Virus record (IMG/VR): IMGVR_UViG_3300030419_003589
Location: 100,787 to 122,431 of that record
From: a virus
Strand: one strand, 5' to 3'
DNA: 21,645 nt
Both the position numbers and the translations under genes were made by a program. Numbering within the stretch: the first letter of the stretch is position 1; each line of letters begins with the position of its first letter. Shown here piece by piece: positions 11,451-17,904 of this stretch. Below the pieces are notes generated by a model. That model saw only the letters and a program-made list of their open reading frames with translations. It was not told the DNA's origin and searched no databases.

Positions 11451-12152
11451 TTAACCATAATAATTTTTTATAACGTACATTGTTTCTTTCCATCCGTTTA
11501 CTTGGTGGTACTTGTCTACATTTTGCGATATTGTGTAGTCGTTTCCACCTTCATAACATTTATCTCCAAAAAAGATTGTCTTGCCTTTCATGTATTCTAG
11601 GACTTGGCTTTTGTCTTTCCCCTTCGGGTAAATATCGGTGCTTATTTCTCCACCGATATCAAATTGGATTCTGGGGTATCTCATTGAAAGCCACTCAGCG
11701 TTTTTTTCTCTTTCACCAGCAGCTTTATCCCATAAGGCGTAAGCCTTTCTCTGTTGTGGTGTTGCAGTCCTACCTATCGTGGAGAAGTTAGCCATCCCTA
11801 CACGCTCCTCTATGTTGTTTTCAGCCTTGCCATACCAAGGACTTCTTTCCGCTAGTATATGTAAATCTAGTCTGAGGTGTGCAGAGATCATCCACTTAGA
11901 TTCATAAATCAGAGAATGCCTGTAGAACAACTGATTTCCACAGTTTTGGTAGACACCATCCATCAACCTATATATGGGTTGTCCGACTTGACTTAATGTC
12001 TTTTCTTTGTTTGAACCTGTAACAAGAAATACCTCGTTTCCAGAATTTTGTTCTTCATGAACCCACTTACCAAAAAATGAGTTCATATCGGGGTTTATCG
12101 GTTCTCTTGAGTTTGTTAGAGTTCCGTCTACATCAAATAAATAACTTATCAT
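11451..12152 (-). CDS. Phosphomannomutase-like HAD hydrolase (eukaryotic PMM type)
   Basis: A 233-residue HAD-superfamily protein close in size to eukaryotic phosphomannomutases (about 245). Motif I is FDVDGTLT (Asp7 nucleophile, Asp9). The VFLVTGSN stretch supplies motif II. NFSTIGR (122-128) matches the N-x-S-P-I-G-R cap motif of PMM. DIYPKGKDKSQVL (173-185) matches D-V-F-P-x-G-W-D-K. FFGDKCYEGGNDYTI (194-208) matches F-F-G-D-K-T-x-x-G-G-N-D-Y-E-I, holding motif IV. The known family reaction is mannose-6-phosphate to mannose-1-phosphate through an aspartyl phosphate. Bacteria normally use an unrelated PMM family, so this type in a phage-like contig is unusual. It may instead be a phosphatase. 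It overlaps the upstream gene by ATGA. Confidence 0.83.
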   Translation of the reverse strand: MISYLFDVDGTLTNSREPINPDMNSFFGKWVHEEQNSGNEVFLVTGSNKEKTLSQVGQPIYRLMDGVYQNCGNQLFYRHSLIYESKWMISAHLRLDLHILAERSPWYGKAENNIEERVGMANFSTIGRTATPQQRKAYALWDKAAGEREKNAEWLSMRYPRIQFDIGGEISTDIYPKGKDKSQVLEYMKGKTIFFGDKCYEGGNDYTISQNVDKYHQVNGWKETMYVIKNYYG

Positions 12153-12331
12153 AGCCCCTTAAAAATCCCTATAAAAAAATCCATTAGAACGTGGTGAAAT
12201 AATATAATAAATAAAATAACCACAACAAAGAAGAACCCGCCCCAATCCGTTTCATCTCTGTCGTTTATTGTCTCTAGGTATCTATCGTATTTTCTCGTAT
12301 CAGTCTTTGGTGGATCGTAGGGGTTTCTCAT
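12149..12331 (-). CDS. Small single-pass membrane protein
   Basis: A 60-residue protein with a polar, charged N-terminal half (PYDPPKTDTRKYDRYLE, presumably cytoplasmic) and one strongly hydrophobic segment at about residues 31-57 (GGFFFVVVILFIILFHHVLMDFF). It has an AAGGAG-containing ribosome site and overlaps the phosphomannomutase start by ATGA. Function unknown. It is one of a chain of three tiny membrane proteins (12149-12629). Confidence 0.65.
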   Translation of the reverse strand: MRNPYDPPKTDTRKYDRYLETINDRDETDWGGFFFVVVILFIILFHHVLMDFFIGIFKGL

Positions 12332-12440
12332 TCCTTCTCCTTACGACCTTTTTTTCTTCATGTCTTAATAATAAAAACATTAGAGATGCTATAGCTATCT
12401 CAATAGTCCATGCCAATAGGCCAGCTTTAACCGCATCCAT
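12300..12440 (-). CDS. Tiny membrane protein
   Basis: A 46-residue frame whose ATG follows the upstream stop with no gap (TAAATG). Residues 6-25 (AGLLAWTIEIAIASLMFLLL) form a membrane helix and the rest is strongly basic (RHEEKKVVRRR), placing the tail in the cytoplasm. It overlaps the next gene by 32 bases. It lacks a strong ribosome site of its own, so expression would depend on coupling. Its good hydrophobic pattern and tight placement support it as a real gene; function unknown. Confidence 0.5.
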   Translation of the reverse strand: MDAVKAGLLAWTIEIAIASLMFLLLRHEEKKVVRRRNEKPLRSTKD

Positions 12441-12629
12441 TTACACGAACTTAAAAATTAAGTAGCCAACGATTACTGCGGCGATCATAAGGAATAACCA
12501 TTTTCTCTTGGCGGCAACAGCGTATGCTTTTGCCGTAACCTCTTGTATCTTGGCTAACCTAAAATCCCGTCTGCTTTCTTTTCTATCGTTTGGTTTATTC
12601 TCTTTATCTTTCTTTTTAAACAGTGGCAT
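12441..12629 (-). CDS. Small tail-anchored membrane protein
   Basis: A 62-residue protein: a very basic, charged N-terminal 30 residues (PLFKKKDKENKPNDRKESRRD), a short Ala-rich helix, then a C-terminal membrane helix at about 44-62 (WLFLMIAAVIVGYLIFKFV). This is a tail-anchored layout with the basic part in the cytoplasm. No family is recognised. It is followed without a gap by the 46-residue membrane protein. Confidence 0.6.
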   Translation of the reverse strand: MPLFKKKDKENKPNDRKESRRDFRLAKIQEVTAKAYAVAAKRKWLFLMIAAVIVGYLIFKFV

Positions 12630-12637
12630 TAACTTAT

Positions 12638-12877
12638 CTATTTATTCTCCTTGTAGTTTTGTTTGTTATCTTCGTAATATTGTTTGTTTTCTAATACAGA
12701 AATTGCTTCATGCTCATGCTTGAAGTAATGCTTGAATTGTTTGTACAACGCCTTGACTTGCTCGAAAGCCTCGTTCTCGTCAATTTTACCTCCCTGCTCT
12801 AAGTCACAAATTATTGACATCTGTATATTAAAAGCTCTGAAAGGATCGTCGTACTTTTCAAATTTGAATTTACTCAT
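12638..12877 (-). CDS. Small charged protein of unknown function
   Basis: A 79-residue protein started at the ATG at 12877, which has GGAG seven bases upstream. A longer frame reaching 12955 would cover the previous small gene. It is rich in Lys, Glu and aromatic residues (FKFEKYDDPFRAFNIQM, then ALYKQFKHYFKHEHE) and predicted helical, ending in a Asn/Lys-rich tail. No motif or family is recognised. The start overlaps the preceding gene's stop by eight bases. Confidence 0.6.
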   Translation of the reverse strand: MSKFKFEKYDDPFRAFNIQMSIICDLEQGGKIDENEAFEQVKALYKQFKHYFKHEHEAISVLENKQYYEDNKQNYKENK

Positions 12878-13034
12878 CGTATAGCTCCGGAAAATTTTCT
12901 CTACAGTATTCTTCAAATGCTTTTTCTGCTTCATCATAAGAAGGGTAATGACCAATGGTCATTTCTGATTCGTCATATACAGCCCAAGAGCCGCAGGAAA
13001 CCCACCTTATGTGTGAGTGTGAGTCCTGCATCAT
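12870..13034 (-). CDS. Tiny protein of unknown function
   Basis: A 54-residue frame whose start overlaps the stop of the dipeptidase gene (ATG at 13034 or 13031). The sequence has a beta-strand look (HIRWVSCGSWAVYDESEMTIGHY), followed by a helix (YDEAEKAFEEYCREN). This is the pattern of a small strand-strand-helix domain of the kind seen in many short phage proteins. It contains two Cys. It fills the gap between the dipeptidase and the next gene exactly, with overlaps at both ends, which is the main support. Confidence 0.5.
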   Translation of the reverse strand: MMQDSHSHIRWVSCGSWAVYDESEMTIGHYPSYDEAEKAFEEYCRENFPELYDE

Positions 13035-14272
13035 CTCCAACCTTCACGCAACACTCTAAGTGCGTTGCCTCCTAAAAACTTAGCTATCGTTTCATCTGAA
13101 TATTTTGGTTTTCCTAAGCCGCTTGTGAGACAGGATAGGTATCTTGTTATTCTTGGTAATTCTGACATATCTGTAATTTCATCTGGAGGATCTGTAAAGC
13201 CATCAAAGTCAGTACCTATACCTACAATATCTGAGCCTCCAATTTTTATAGCGTGGTCGAGGGTTCTCTCGATACATTTTAACCCCAGAGGAGTGTCCAC
13301 AGGGCTAATCCAGTAATTCATAAAAATAATGCCGAGGACTCCACCGTGTTGGCTAAACCAGCTTAACTCCCAGTCATGTAGATTATATGGGTCTGGATTA
13401 ATCTCAAAAACCCCAGCATGACTATTAATAACTCGGTTTTGTTTATCACCCACTATGTCGTACACATCGCATCTAGCTTGTGGGGTACAGTGAGCAATAT
13501 CAATAATCATTTTAAGGTCGCACATTCTTTCAACAACCAACTTGCCTAGTTTGGATAATCCAACATTCATATCCCACTTAGACATAAGGTGCTTCCAGTT
13601 ACTTCTCTTGATACCATAATTGGGGTAAGGGAACACCGGATGAGCTAAGACGTTTGGGTAGAAGTGTGCAAGAGTAAGGTAGGCTACGCCTCTCTCAGCT
13701 AGATACTCTAGGTTCTGTAAAACTTCCGCTTCTATAACTTTGTTGTCAGAAGATGTTTCACAGTCTAGCCCCTGTAAGCTGTGACCCCCTTCTACGGAAT
13801 GGATTAAAGCTATATGTCCTTTATTTAGGCAGTTGTCCAGACCTTCTCTGTCGGTCACAACCTGTATAGGTCTACCGCTTGATTTGTCATCCTGAAACAG
13901 TTTTTTGTTGTAGTTAAATACCTGCTTCTCCATGTCGTCGATCATATTGACGGTTGCATCGAAATAAAATGGATCAAACGCCCTTCTCCTAACATCTGGA
14001 GCTAAAGCTAATGCCCACTTAACTAAGGGTTGGTCTTCTAGCCACTCTCTTTCAGGTATGTAGCACGTCGAAAGAACAACATCCATACCACCCTTTTCAA
14101 TTAGTGGAAATGTGCTACGTTGACTTAGAGGCCAAAAGGCTCTCTTAAATAGTCCTGCCAAGAACTTAACCTTACTAGAAGATAAATCCCTATTTAGTAG
14201 AAATCTTTTCAGTACAGCGTGATTGTGTAAATCAACTACTGGTGACTCTCTGTGTAAATCTCTCCAATTCAT
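13031..14272 (-). CDS. Membrane-dipeptidase-like (M19 family) metallopeptidase
   Basis: A 413-residue protein of full length for the M19 TIM-barrel dipeptidases. Visible metal-site motifs are VVDLHNH (residues 12-18), HSVEGG (Glu161, bridging ligand), IDIAHC (His261), INSHAG (His285) and GIGTDFDG (Asp355). The C-terminal FLGGNALRVLR matches the family's closing G-G-N-x-x-R-V. In the first motif the usual H-x-D is His16-x-His18, so one zinc ligand differs. M19 enzymes hydrolyse dipeptides, often with a D-amino acid at the C-terminus. There is no signal peptide, so it acts in the cytoplasm. This is an unusual phage cargo; peptidoglycan-peptide turnover is one possible role. It overlaps the HAD gene by one base (TAATG). 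Confidence 0.85.
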   Translation of the reverse strand: MNWRDLHRESPVVDLHNHAVLKRFLLNRDLSSSKVKFLAGLFKRAFWPLSQRSTFPLIEKGGMDVVLSTCYIPEREWLEDQPLVKWALALAPDVRRRAFDPFYFDATVNMIDDMEKQVFNYNKKLFQDDKSSGRPIQVVTDREGLDNCLNKGHIALIHSVEGGHSLQGLDCETSSDNKVIEAEVLQNLEYLAERGVAYLTLAHFYPNVLAHPVFPYPNYGIKRSNWKHLMSKWDMNVGLSKLGKLVVERMCDLKMIIDIAHCTPQARCDVYDIVGDKQNRVINSHAGVFEINPDPYNLHDWELSWFSQHGGVLGIIFMNYWISPVDTPLGLKCIERTLDHAIKIGGSDIVGIGTDFDGFTDPPDEITDMSELPRITRYLSCLTSGLGKPKYSDETIAKFLGGNALRVLREGWR

Positions 14273-14766
14273 TAAACTAAGTAGGACTTGACCCCTACCT
14301 CCTTTGCTAACTCTATATTTGTTTCATTGTCGTCGTAAAAATACGTTTTGTCATGCTTTTCCATAATTGATAGCAGGACGGTTCTTTTATTTTTTGCTAT
14401 ACTTTCTTTATCTCCACCGACACAAAATACAGTCCTTGTTTGTATGTTATATTCACTTAGCCATAAATTAATTGCGTCTGATACATCACCCTCTCTTGCT
14501 GTGAGTATGTAAACGCTATGGCCTTCTGCATGTACCTCTTTAGCCAAATCTATTAGGAACGTAGGTTGGGCTGTTCTTATAAACTCCGAATCCCTAAACT
14601 CGTCAAAGTTGAAATATTCAAAGTCTCCAAGTTGGTAGGAATTAAATTCTTGTGGTGTTATTTTAGCCACAAGTTTATCACGGGGGGTATGTCTCTCGTA
14701 AACATTTATCTTGCATTTTGTCTTAGCAAGAGTGTCGTCAAAGTCAAATACAAATGCTTTCTTCAT
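14272..14766 (-). CDS. HAD-superfamily phosphatase, polynucleotide-phosphatase-like
   Basis: A 164-residue HAD protein. The start is the ATG at 14766 with GGAG six bases upstream. A frame extension to 14796 would begin at the expected transcription start. Motif I is FDFDDTLAKT (Asp8, Asp10), motif II is YILTAREG (Thr), a Lys lies in the AKNKRTVL region, and motif IV is YFYDDNETNI. This spacing resembles the phosphatase domain of T4 polynucleotide kinase and other small phage HADs, though no kinase domain is present. Likely substrates are a 3'-phosphate end or a nucleotide. It is the first gene after a consensus promoter and is coupled to the dipeptidase gene. Confidence 0.78.
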   Translation of the reverse strand: MKKAFVFDFDDTLAKTKCKINVYERHTPRDKLVAKITPQEFNSYQLGDFEYFNFDEFRDSEFIRTAQPTFLIDLAKEVHAEGHSVYILTAREGDVSDAINLWLSEYNIQTRTVFCVGGDKESIAKNKRTVLLSIMEKHDKTYFYDDNETNIELAKEVGVKSYLV

Positions 14767-14799
14767 ACCGATCTCCTCTACACAGTTCTCCAACATAAT

Positions 14800-14828
14800 A
14801 TTATAGCATATAGACGTTAGAATGTCAA
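14800..14828 (-). promoter_or_regulatory. Consensus sigma70-type promoter for the HAD/dipeptidase operon
   Basis: Minus strand: perfect -35 TTGACA (14828-14823), 17-base spacer, perfect -10 TATAAT (14805-14800). The expected start is near 14793, giving a leader of about 27 bases. The -35 overlaps the TGA stop of the upstream gene. Confidence 0.9.
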
Positions 14829-15304
14829 GGGGAATTTGTGTTTTTATGATTTTCTTGTTGGGTTTTTATTTTTTCTAGTATGTTATGTAACGCTTGAGCC
14901 TGAAATAGACTTCCCGAAGCCAGTGATCTAATGCCTAGTTTTATTTCTATCTGGTCTTTGGCAATTTGTTCAAAGGTAAGGTTGACTTCCTCATCTCCGT
15001 CTTCGATCTTGAACTCTGGCTGGTCAGACAGGAGTAAGCCGTTGATACTCTTTGGTAGCTCCTTTACTGGTTTGCCATTTAGTGCGTTTAATATCTGTAA
15101 TATAATGTCTGCATTGTCTGATTGTTTTTCTGCCGCTAAAGCTACAGATTGAATTAAATCCGTATCCCCATCAATAACTTTCTGTATATTCAGGTCTAGG
15201 CTTTTAGCTGTCCAATTTCTCTCTTGCCCTAGATAAAATCCAAATACTGCCGCACCAATAATGATAAACCAACCAAATATAACCGTCTTGATGTCATGCC
15301 TCAT
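14825..15304 (-). CDS. Membrane-anchored protein of unknown function
   Basis: A 159-residue protein with a basic N-terminus and one membrane segment at about residues 8-25 (VIFGWFIIIGAAVFGFYLG), probably an uncleaved signal anchor. A mostly helical acidic domain follows (residues 30-150), with Leu/Ile heptads near the end (LFQAQALHNILEKIKTQ). No family is recognised. It has an AGGAG site six bases from the start and sits one base after the conserved gene upstream. Its stop codon is part of the next promoter. Confidence 0.65.
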   Translation of the reverse strand: MRHDIKTVIFGWFIIIGAAVFGFYLGQERNWTAKSLDLNIQKVIDGDTDLIQSVALAAEKQSDNADIILQILNALNGKPVKELPKSINGLLLSDQPEFKIEDGDEEVNLTFEQIAKDQIEIKLGIRSLASGSLFQAQALHNILEKIKTQQENHKNTNSP

Positions 15305-15305
15305 G

Positions 15306-15851
15306 TTAAACTCCTAATAAAGATTCTGGGATTGGGTCACTGTTGTAGTGGTCTGATGAATGAATACTGTTTTTCCACCAGTTAGGTTCGCTCCTGTTAG
15401 TCCACACACACTTAAAACTGTTACGCTTATCTACATTGTAGAAATGTCTGTACGCTGTTACGCTGTCGTCGTCCTTGAATCGGTCTGGCATACACTGAGG
15501 CATCTTGGTTTGCTGACCCTCTGGGATGCTCGGTATATTGTCTGCACACCACTTAATAATCGACTGACTAGCGTGAATCTTTCCATAGCGATGTGTGTAT
15601 TCTTCGCATAACGCAAGGGCGTGGTCAATCATCCAGTCATAATTACCTGTGGTGGTGCGAACCCAAATAGTCGAGGGATGGTTAAGATGTGCTTGCTTGT
15701 AAAACTTCTCTGGTCGCTGTGCGTCCGTAGGGCAGGCGTGATGAGCCGTACACAACATCTGTGCTGACTCTAGTATCATCTTAACAACGTGCTTATCACA
15801 CTGGTACTGTGCGGCCTCTACAGGACACTCTGACAGGTAAAAAATATTCAT
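15306..15851 (-). CDS. Conserved phage protein, CDKHVVKM type, function unknown
   Basis: A 181-residue soluble protein. The N-terminus MNIFYLSECPVEAAQYQCDKHVVKMILESAQML (quoted here as its key parts: FYL, CDKHVVKM, ESAQML), a Y-x-x-x-H-x-NHPS-x-W segment, a TGNYDW-M helix, CEEYTHRYGK and a Trp-rich end all match a family I associate with many phage genomes. That family has conserved Cys, His and Trp residues suggesting a metal or nucleotide site. No reaction is known to me. It has its own promoter (15900-15873) and a leader of about 15 bases. It is not the pyrimidine-dimer glycosylase family, despite occasional annotation of similar proteins that way. Confidence 0.72.
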   Translation of the reverse strand: MNIFYLSECPVEAAQYQCDKHVVKMILESAQMLCTAHHACPTDAQRPEKFYKQAHLNHPSTIWVRTTTGNYDWMIDHALALCEEYTHRYGKIHASQSIIKWCADNIPSIPEGQQTKMPQCMPDRFKDDDSVTAYRHFYNVDKRNSFKCVWTNRSEPNWWKNSIHSSDHYNSDPIPESLLGV

Positions 15852-16411: not shown

Positions 16412-16433
16412 TCCTTCCTCCGTTTCCAAAAAG

Positions 16434-16505
16434 TAGCCCGACGAGGAATCGAACCTCGAATTGCGGTTTAGAAGACCGCTGTTATATCCGTTTAACTATC
16501 AGGCC
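16434..16505 (-). tRNA. tRNA-Arg (UCU anticodon)
   Basis: A 72-nt cloverleaf: a 7-bp acceptor (GGCCTGA with TCGGGCT, including a G1-U72 wobble), the D arm GTTA/TAAC, an anticodon stem GCGGT/ACCGC with loop CTTCTAA (anticodon TCT), a four-base variable loop, and a T arm CGAGG/CCTCG with loop TTCGATT. The discriminator is A and CCA is not encoded (CTT follows). It would read AGA, a codon common in AT-rich phage genes. Confidence 0.93.
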
Positions 16506-16510
16506 ATAAG

Positions 16511-16584
16511 TAGACTGGGAGGGACTCGAACCCCCGACAAAGGGATTATGAGTCCCCTGCTCTAACCAACTGAGCTACCAGTCC
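16511..16584 (-). tRNA. tRNA with CAU anticodon (elongator Met or lysidine-type Ile2)
   Basis: A 74-nt cloverleaf: an acceptor GGACTGG with CCAGTCT (G1-U72 wobble), D arm GCTC/GAGC, anticodon stem GGGGA/TCCCT with loop CTCATAA (anticodon CAT), a five-base variable loop, and T arm GGGGG/CCCTC with loop TTCGAGT. It lacks the three G-C pairs at the bottom of the anticodon stem and the unpaired 1-72 of an initiator. Whether the C34 is modified to lysidine, making it Ile2, cannot be told. CCA is not encoded. Confidence 0.93.
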
Positions 16585-16985: not shown

Positions 16986-17006
16986 TATCAGTTCTCCTTG
17001 TTTAAG

Positions 17007-17077
17007 TAGTACGGGTAGGAATCGAACCTACGGAGGCGGGTATATAAGACCTGCTTGGATAACCGATCCACCGTACC
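17007..17077 (-). tRNA. tRNA-like gene, probable anticodon UAU (Ile)
   Basis: A 71-nt cloverleaf with some irregular parts. The acceptor GGTACGG pairs with CCGTACT (G1-U72 wobble), and the T arm GTAGG/CCTAC with loop TTCGATT is perfect. The D arm is short (GGA/TCC or GAT/ATC with a small GG-containing loop). The anticodon stem CAGGT/ACCCG has one A-C mismatch around loop CTTATAT, giving anticodon TAT. It would read AUA as Ile. The mismatch and small D arm leave some doubt about identity or function. It directly follows the tmRNA coding piece. Confidence 0.75.
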
Positions 17078-17081
17078 ATAA

Positions 17082-17345
17082 TGCCAGTTTGGGTAACAAG
17101 GTACTGGCAAACCCCGTGACCTAAAAGGTCAGTTGGCCGCTAGGCGGCCAGTGCGAAATTCTCTTCGACACTTGAAAAATTGATTAGATTTTTTGCGTAG
17201 CCCTTCTAATCACCTACGACATGCAGTTATTATATCCACAACCAGTCGAACCCATTTCACCCCCATAGTTTGGTAAGTGGAGGCGGCGGGAATCGAACCC
17301 GCGTCCTGTATTGATTCAATAACAACGTCTACATGCTTAGTCCAC
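17082..17345 (-). ncRNA. ssrA: Circularly permuted (two-piece) tmRNA gene
   Basis: tmRNA rescues stalled ribosomes by acting as a tRNA and then as a message for a degradation tag. Here the 3' part comes first: CTAAGCATGTAG (17340-17329, as in standard tmRNAs), then a perfect T arm GCGGG-TTCGATT-CCCGC (17302-17286), acceptor strand CGCCTCC (17285-17279) and discriminator A (17278). After a 13-base spacer comes the 5' part: GGGGGTG (17264-17258), pairing with that acceptor strand in seven pairs (two G-U), and the tmRNA signature GGGTTCGACTGG. The P2 helix is seen as AATAAC with GTTATT. The tag frame (17196-17140) ends in ALAA and a stop inside a hairpin; two further hairpins follow (to 17082). 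Exact processing ends are not visible, and the 5' end upstream of about 17345 is uncertain. CCA is not encoded. Confidence 0.9.
17140..17196 (-). other. tmRNA tag reading frame
   Basis: Read from a GCA resume codon, the tag is AKNLINFSSVEENFALAA followed by TAG. The C-terminal ENFALAA closely matches the ENYALAA end of the E. coli tag that ClpXP and its adaptor recognise. The N-terminal A-x-N-L-I-x-F-S is reminiscent of cyanobacterial tags (A-N-N-I-V-x-F-S). The stop lies in a 7-bp hairpin TGGCCGC/GCGGCCA, a usual position in tmRNA. Confidence 0.88.
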
Positions 17346-17405
17346 AGTGGACATTTTCACTTGTCACAGGAGCTTGAGCATTACCCTAATTGTTTGGGTA
17401 ATACT

Positions 17406-17786: not shown

Positions 17787-17831
17787 AAATCCCTCCTAAA
17801 AGTTACTTGGTGTGTAAAGAAAAACGTCTAG

Positions 17832-17904
17832 TACCCCGTAGGAGAATTGAACTCCTGTTTTCGGCGTGAGAAGCCGATGTCCTAGTCCACTAGACGAACG
17901 GGGC
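17832..17904 (-). tRNA. tRNA-Glu (CUC anticodon)
   Basis: A 73-nt cloverleaf: acceptor GCCCCGT with ACGGGGT (G1-U72 wobble), T8-C9, D arm GTCT/GGAC, anticodon stem TCGGC/GCCGA with loop TTCTCAC (anticodon CTC), and T arm AGGAG/CTCCT with loop TTCAATT. It has the GTCTAG D-arm sequence typical of tRNA-Glu. It is the first gene after the promoter at 17941-17914. CCA is not encoded. Confidence 0.93.

Follow-up and report, generated by a model that had tools for sequence, protein, structure and literature searches.

A permuted tmRNA gene in the tRNA cluster of a T4-like phage, with one-piece tmRNAs of sister phages as its closest kin beyond its own clade

The window, meaning the whole 21,645-nucleotide stretch analysed here, belongs to an IMG/VR record of 122,431 bases from a T4-like phage and contains a real permuted (two-piece) tmRNA gene at 17352-17082 on the minus strand, in which an acceptor piece, a 13-nt spacer and a coding piece follow one another in that order (Table 1). 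We judge it probable, at about 0.7, that this is a working gene of the phage which arose in the phage lineage and did not come from the permuted genes of alphaproteobacteria, betaproteobacteria or cyanobacteria. Independent origins of two-piece tmRNA are assumed for those few bacterial lineages, and mitochondria have a two-piece form too; the proposed route is tandem duplication with loss of the outer parts. A permuted tmRNA in a phage is, as such, already published and not new: 53 of 133 unique phage tmRNA structures are two-piece, 50 of the 53 come from marine or aquatic phages, Melnitz included, and capture of the permuted gene from the host has been proposed for Melnitz and the pelagiphages (PMC9004378). 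What seems to be novel is the lineage of this one.

Table 1. Features of the permuted tmRNA gene and the neighbouring tRNA genes (window positions).
Feature	Position	Strand	Evidence or remark
Acceptor piece (3' tRNA-like part, first in gene order)	17278..17352	-	Rfam match, alignment of relatives, covariation
Short hairpin in acceptor piece	17340-17352	-	
P2 3' strands	within 17278..17352	-	
T arm	17286-17302	-	perfect
Acceptor 3' strand	17279-17285	-	
Discriminator A	17278	-	
13-nt intervening sequence CTTACCAAACTAT between the pieces	17265..17277	-	
Coding piece (acceptor 5' strand, D-like region, P2 5' strands, PK1, tag frame, stop hairpin, PK2)	17082..17264	-	
Acceptor 5' strand	17258-17264	-	
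Pseudoknot PK1, stems CGTAG/CTACG and TGATTAGA/TCTAATCA	17181..17218	-	covariation
Tag reading frame VEENFALAA + stop TAG; resume codon GTC	17140..17169	-	ARAGORN and comparison
Stop-codon hairpin GGCCGC-CTA-GCGGCC	17135..17149	-	covariation
Additional hairpin TGACC/GGTCA	17117..17131	-	missing in some relatives
Pseudoknot PK2, stem TGCCAGT/ACTGGCA	17082..17115	-	this stem included in the pair count
tRNA-Glu(ctc)	17831..17904	-	upstream of tmRNA
tRNA-Ile(tat)	17006..17077	-	next gene downstream, same cluster
tRNA-Met(cat)	16510..16584	-	
tRNA-Arg(tct)	16433..16505	-	

The general model RF04321 (tmRNA_permuted; cut-off 47), into which the alpha, beta and cyanobacterial models RF01849, RF01850 and RF01851 have been merged (PMC11915505), matches the gene over its full length at 91.7 bits (E 7e-17). 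With the separate models, RF01850 (75.7 bits) and RF01851 (50.8 bits) fall below their cut-offs of 84 and 70; RF01849 passes just above its own (62.7 bits against 50), yet identity to alpha-type genes is at most 46%, the gene lies apart from them in trees, and AU tests of that grouping gave p 0.07-0.11. With 38.3 bits the standard one-piece model RF00023 stays short of its cut-off (47), and a one-piece fold at the site was ruled out on this score. ARAGORN independently calls a permuted tmRNA (tmRNA*) with the tag VEENFALAA. The acceptor piece precedes the coding piece, the tag ending is hydrophobic and PK1 lies upstream of the tag frame, as in the general form of a permuted tmRNA. An earlier note, made from the letters alone, had recognised such a gene at 17082-17345, its 3' tRNA-like part with a perfect T arm coming first and its acceptor strands pairing across the spacer; gene and arrangement (7/7 pairs over 13 nt) were borne out at nearly the same coordinates. 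It had named two results that would speak against the gene, no model above threshold or a better-scoring one-piece fold, and found was the reverse of both. Since RF04321 passes and RF00023 falls below its cut-off, the observation stands.

The structure was examined by aligning 13 related permuted genes and counting 63 pairs; PK2's second stem with GGGG was left out of the count, and only its TGCCAGT/ACTGGCA stem was included. Pairing holds in 97.5% of pair cells, as against 33-45% with partners slid, and two-sided changes occur in 17 pairs, a number reached in 0 of 500 shuffles (mean 7.7); the structure itself came from the window sequence, a bias in its favour in the slid comparison and none in the shuffle comparison. 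The inter-piece helices, namely the acceptor stem and P2 in three sections (helices 1, 2, 3 and 5), are paired in 97-100% of cells, with two-sided changes in six pairs, and PK1 and the stop hairpin are likewise supported. Two-strand folding energy did not discriminate (gain -14.9, against a mean of -9.0 and a minimum of -16.4 with the acceptor piece shuffled). The 3:70 pair is G.U in all 13 relatives; G3.U70 is an alanine identity mark. Spacers in the relatives are mostly 12-20 nt long, and a few measure from 70 to about 125 nt or more. In L381 (1444-1825), L383 and L479 (4905-5338) an inverted repeat, CAGAAGCACACTA ... TAGTGTGTTTCTG, flanks the long spacer, an arrangement that closely resembles the hairpin in the spacer of beta-type permuted tmRNAs.

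ARAGORN and the comparison of the relatives agree on a tag of nine residues, VEENFALAA; all 13 relatives have the last nine codons open and begin them with a G-starting resume codon. Tags among them include VEENFALAA, VEKNFALAA, GVENYAMAA, ADESLALAA and AEPCFALAA, and the hydrophobic LAA/MAA ending is conserved. The 18-residue tag AKNLINFSSVEENFALAA read in the earlier note was ruled out: it begins inside PK1, its extra first nine codons overlap the PK1 3' strand, and 9 of 13 relatives have stops within them. For the same reasons the tag is no chimera with a cyanobacterial-looking start. The stop codon does lie in a hairpin, as had been seen, and covariation supports that hairpin.

The record also encodes a T4-like DNA polymerase, a DnaB/gp41-type helicase, UvsX, NrdA/B and RIIB. 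No close isolate phage was found: all cultured phages share less than 60% with its helicase, and those listed about 25-28%. The gene order tRNA-Glu, tmRNA, tRNA-Ile, tRNA-Met, tRNA-Arg is retained in the relatives L136 and L154, where tRNA-Glu(ttc) immediately adjoins the tmRNA. A pattern scan of IMG/VR for the same arrangement, a check that the note had proposed, returned at least 119 stretches; among those listed most are permuted tmRNAs by ARAGORN and several sit in tRNA clusters. A first viral scan with too strict a pattern gave 0 matches. Elsewhere in the window an M19 membrane dipeptidase (13031-14272) and a phosphomannomutase-like HAD protein (11451-12152), unusual cargo for a phage, are both retained in relatives, and a 307-aa ORF (3-926) with no Pfam or PHROG match resembles, by eye, a papain-fold cysteine protease (GDCVAH ... 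GWNHAM ... QNSWG). In record G000 (L005:11474-15359, minus strand) the T4-like DNA polymerase is broken up into a pair of ORFs (13731-15359 and 11474-13042), and a 224-aa ORF (13064-13738), possibly a homing endonuclease, lies between them.

Relatives were sought through the neighbouring M19 dipeptidase and helicase genes, and their tmRNAs are permuted in some and one-piece in others; many of the records are fragments, so that absence of a tmRNA there says little. One-piece and permuted carriers have neighbourhood genes in common (PMM, cupin, nucleotidyltransferase, SSB, M19). After the pieces had been put into a common order, identity of the window gene to long one-piece phage tmRNAs was 64-74%, to the one-piece tmRNAs sampled from bacteria at most 57%, and to beta-type permuted genes at most 55%; when each piece is taken apart, the group means put the same one-piece phages first. 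The one-piece genes of sister phages (L142, L144, L149, L162, L387 and the compact L388, L390, L392) are similar in tag, P2, PK1, resume context and acceptor stem, and differ in their conventional order; the long forms are about 340 nt with a PK3/PK4 region, which in the compact 277-nt forms is replaced by a hairpin. RF00023 scores four of them (L142, L144, L149, L387) above its cut-off, at 82-122 bits. Tags run close across the two forms, AEKNFALAA (L149) beside VEKNFALAA and AEPSFAIAA (L387) beside AEPCFALAA. A coding-piece model built from permuted and one-piece phage genes together found the left-out members L075, L488, L479, L381 and L162 at 81-126 bits; the best score among the bacterial tmRNAs sampled was 41 bits, and Melnitz scored 27.

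Like the window gene, Melnitz (a Methylophilales phage, MZ577097) and the pelagimyophages carry a phage-encoded permuted tmRNA with a full tag frame in a T4-like phage (PMC9004378). Melnitz is of alpha type, however, with 106.7 bits from RF01849, a tag, ANDNYVPVDYALAA, unlike VEENFALAA, a spacer of more than 100 nt and a glutamine riboswitch after the gene. Bacterial permuted tmRNAs share with the window gene the order of the pieces, their joining by acceptor stem and P2, and the loss of the PK3/PK4 region. They score about 125-165 bits with RF04321, against about 80-96 for the window gene's clade, and differ from the clade in PK1 and in acceptor-piece sequence, where the clade has GACTAAGCATGTAGA as in one-piece tmRNA.

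Three trees group the permuted and one-piece phage genes in a single clade (support 99-100/99), apart from the alpha, beta and cyanobacterial-type permuted genes and from Melnitz; in a larger tree with many long branches the backbone did not resolve. These trees and the AU tests use only about 180 columns, and joining the clade to the alpha, beta, cyanobacterial or all permuted genes gave p 0.02-0.11, mostly above 0.05. The helicase (gp41) tree has permuted and one-piece carriers interspersed, suggesting recombination among phages. The compact one-piece genes L388 and L390/L392 fall among the permuted genes, on long branches, and retain a hairpin at the position of the one in the permuted acceptor piece; reversal from the permuted form may account for them, although holding all permuted phage genes together was not rejected (p 0.09). 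The data do not root the trees; we infer the direction of change, and one-piece to permuted is the simpler one, because bacteria ordinarily have one-piece genes and the long one-piece phage genes retain PK3/PK4. As the window gene is nearest to the normal-order version of its sister phages, the rearrangement probably took place inside this group of viruses and not in bacteria. A separate origin of two-piece tmRNA in the phage lineage, perhaps with later reversals, is the simplest reading and probably the right one. More tentatively, gene order may have switched more than once in this one T4-like clade, from one-piece to permuted and, on at least one branch, back to a compact one-piece form.

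The main competing explanation, which we think unlikely, is that an already permuted gene was taken from an alphaproteobacterial, betaproteobacterial or cyanobacterial host and that its likeness to the one-piece phage forms reflects convergence or recombination. The earlier note had implied such kinship. There is the published precedent (PMC9004378), RF01849 passes, and the AU tests stop short of firmly rejecting joint clades; on the other side the beta and cyanobacterial models stay below their cut-offs, both pieces are most similar to one-piece tmRNAs of sister phages, well ahead of the alpha- and beta-type genes, and the phage clade is strongly supported. A narrow pattern scan over species genomes found no matching bacterial tmRNA, nor did model R1 over 399 Pseudomonadota genomes at E<=1e-8, run without a positive control; the same gene could be present in a host lineage outside these samples. 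Identity ranking and trees together make an origin from a host-type permuted gene the less likely one.

Origin within the phages, then, would mean permutation of a one-piece phage tmRNA, with PK3 lost and PK4 reduced to a hairpin. The tRNA/tmRNA cluster would be transcribed as a single RNA, host RNase P and tRNA 3' processing enzymes would cut on either side of the spacer, and the pieces would be held together by pairing over 7 bp in the acceptor stem and about 20 bp in P2. No CCA is encoded after the acceptor piece, and it must therefore be added, after which charging with alanine would be expected. A search of the 122-kb record found no SmpB, and function would therefore depend on the host: with host SmpB, the RNA would rescue stalled ribosomes and add A-VEENFALAA, an ALAA-type degradation tag. 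To judge by its anatomy, a tmRNA inside the phage tRNA cluster presumably does provide the ribosome rescue and tagging that the note had envisaged. It is very improbable that the RNA is instead a decoy which attaches to SmpB, AlaRS or ribosomes of the host and blocks trans-translation there rather than performing it. Lack of SmpB in the record would suit a decoy, and two papers cite a precedent in phage DS6A, whose tmRNA retains only the tRNA-like domain and inhibits the host tmRNA (PMC11915505, PMC4131195); the complete tag frame, PK1, the resume context and the LAA/MAA ending, all conserved or covarying here, would be needless in such an RNA. Least credible of all is that the gene is a remnant in decay and without function, or that the resemblance is due to chance. 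The general model gives low scores for some relatives (39.3 bits in L383) and ARAGORN misses some, but compensatory changes across the 13 relatives far exceed those in shuffles, the tag frame is open in every one, and the E value with RF04321 is very small.

One-piece and two-piece forms thus occur in closely related phages that share genes and have similar tags, so the two can be compared directly and intermediates could be sought. This suggests that phage tmRNAs have a history of their own and are not all recent captures from hosts; if repeated switching of order is true, these phages would be a natural laboratory for the permutation of RNA genes.

ARAGORN misses the permuted tmRNAs of L378, L154 and L136 and mis-tags those of L135 and L157; RF04321 gives 82-89 bits for L378, L154 and L157. 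Published phage counts are based on ARAGORN, which these cases suggest misses or mis-tags part of the phage tmRNAs. A further arrangement is seen in L008 (5632-5730) and also in L074: the acceptor piece of the tmRNA occurs a second time, with GGGGATGCACTG behind it and after that what, by eye, appear to be the anticodon arm, T arm and acceptor strand of a tRNA-Ala(TGC) that lacks a D arm. In L008 this apparent tmRNA/tRNA chimera lies about 740 bp upstream of an intact cyanobacterial-type permuted tmRNA.
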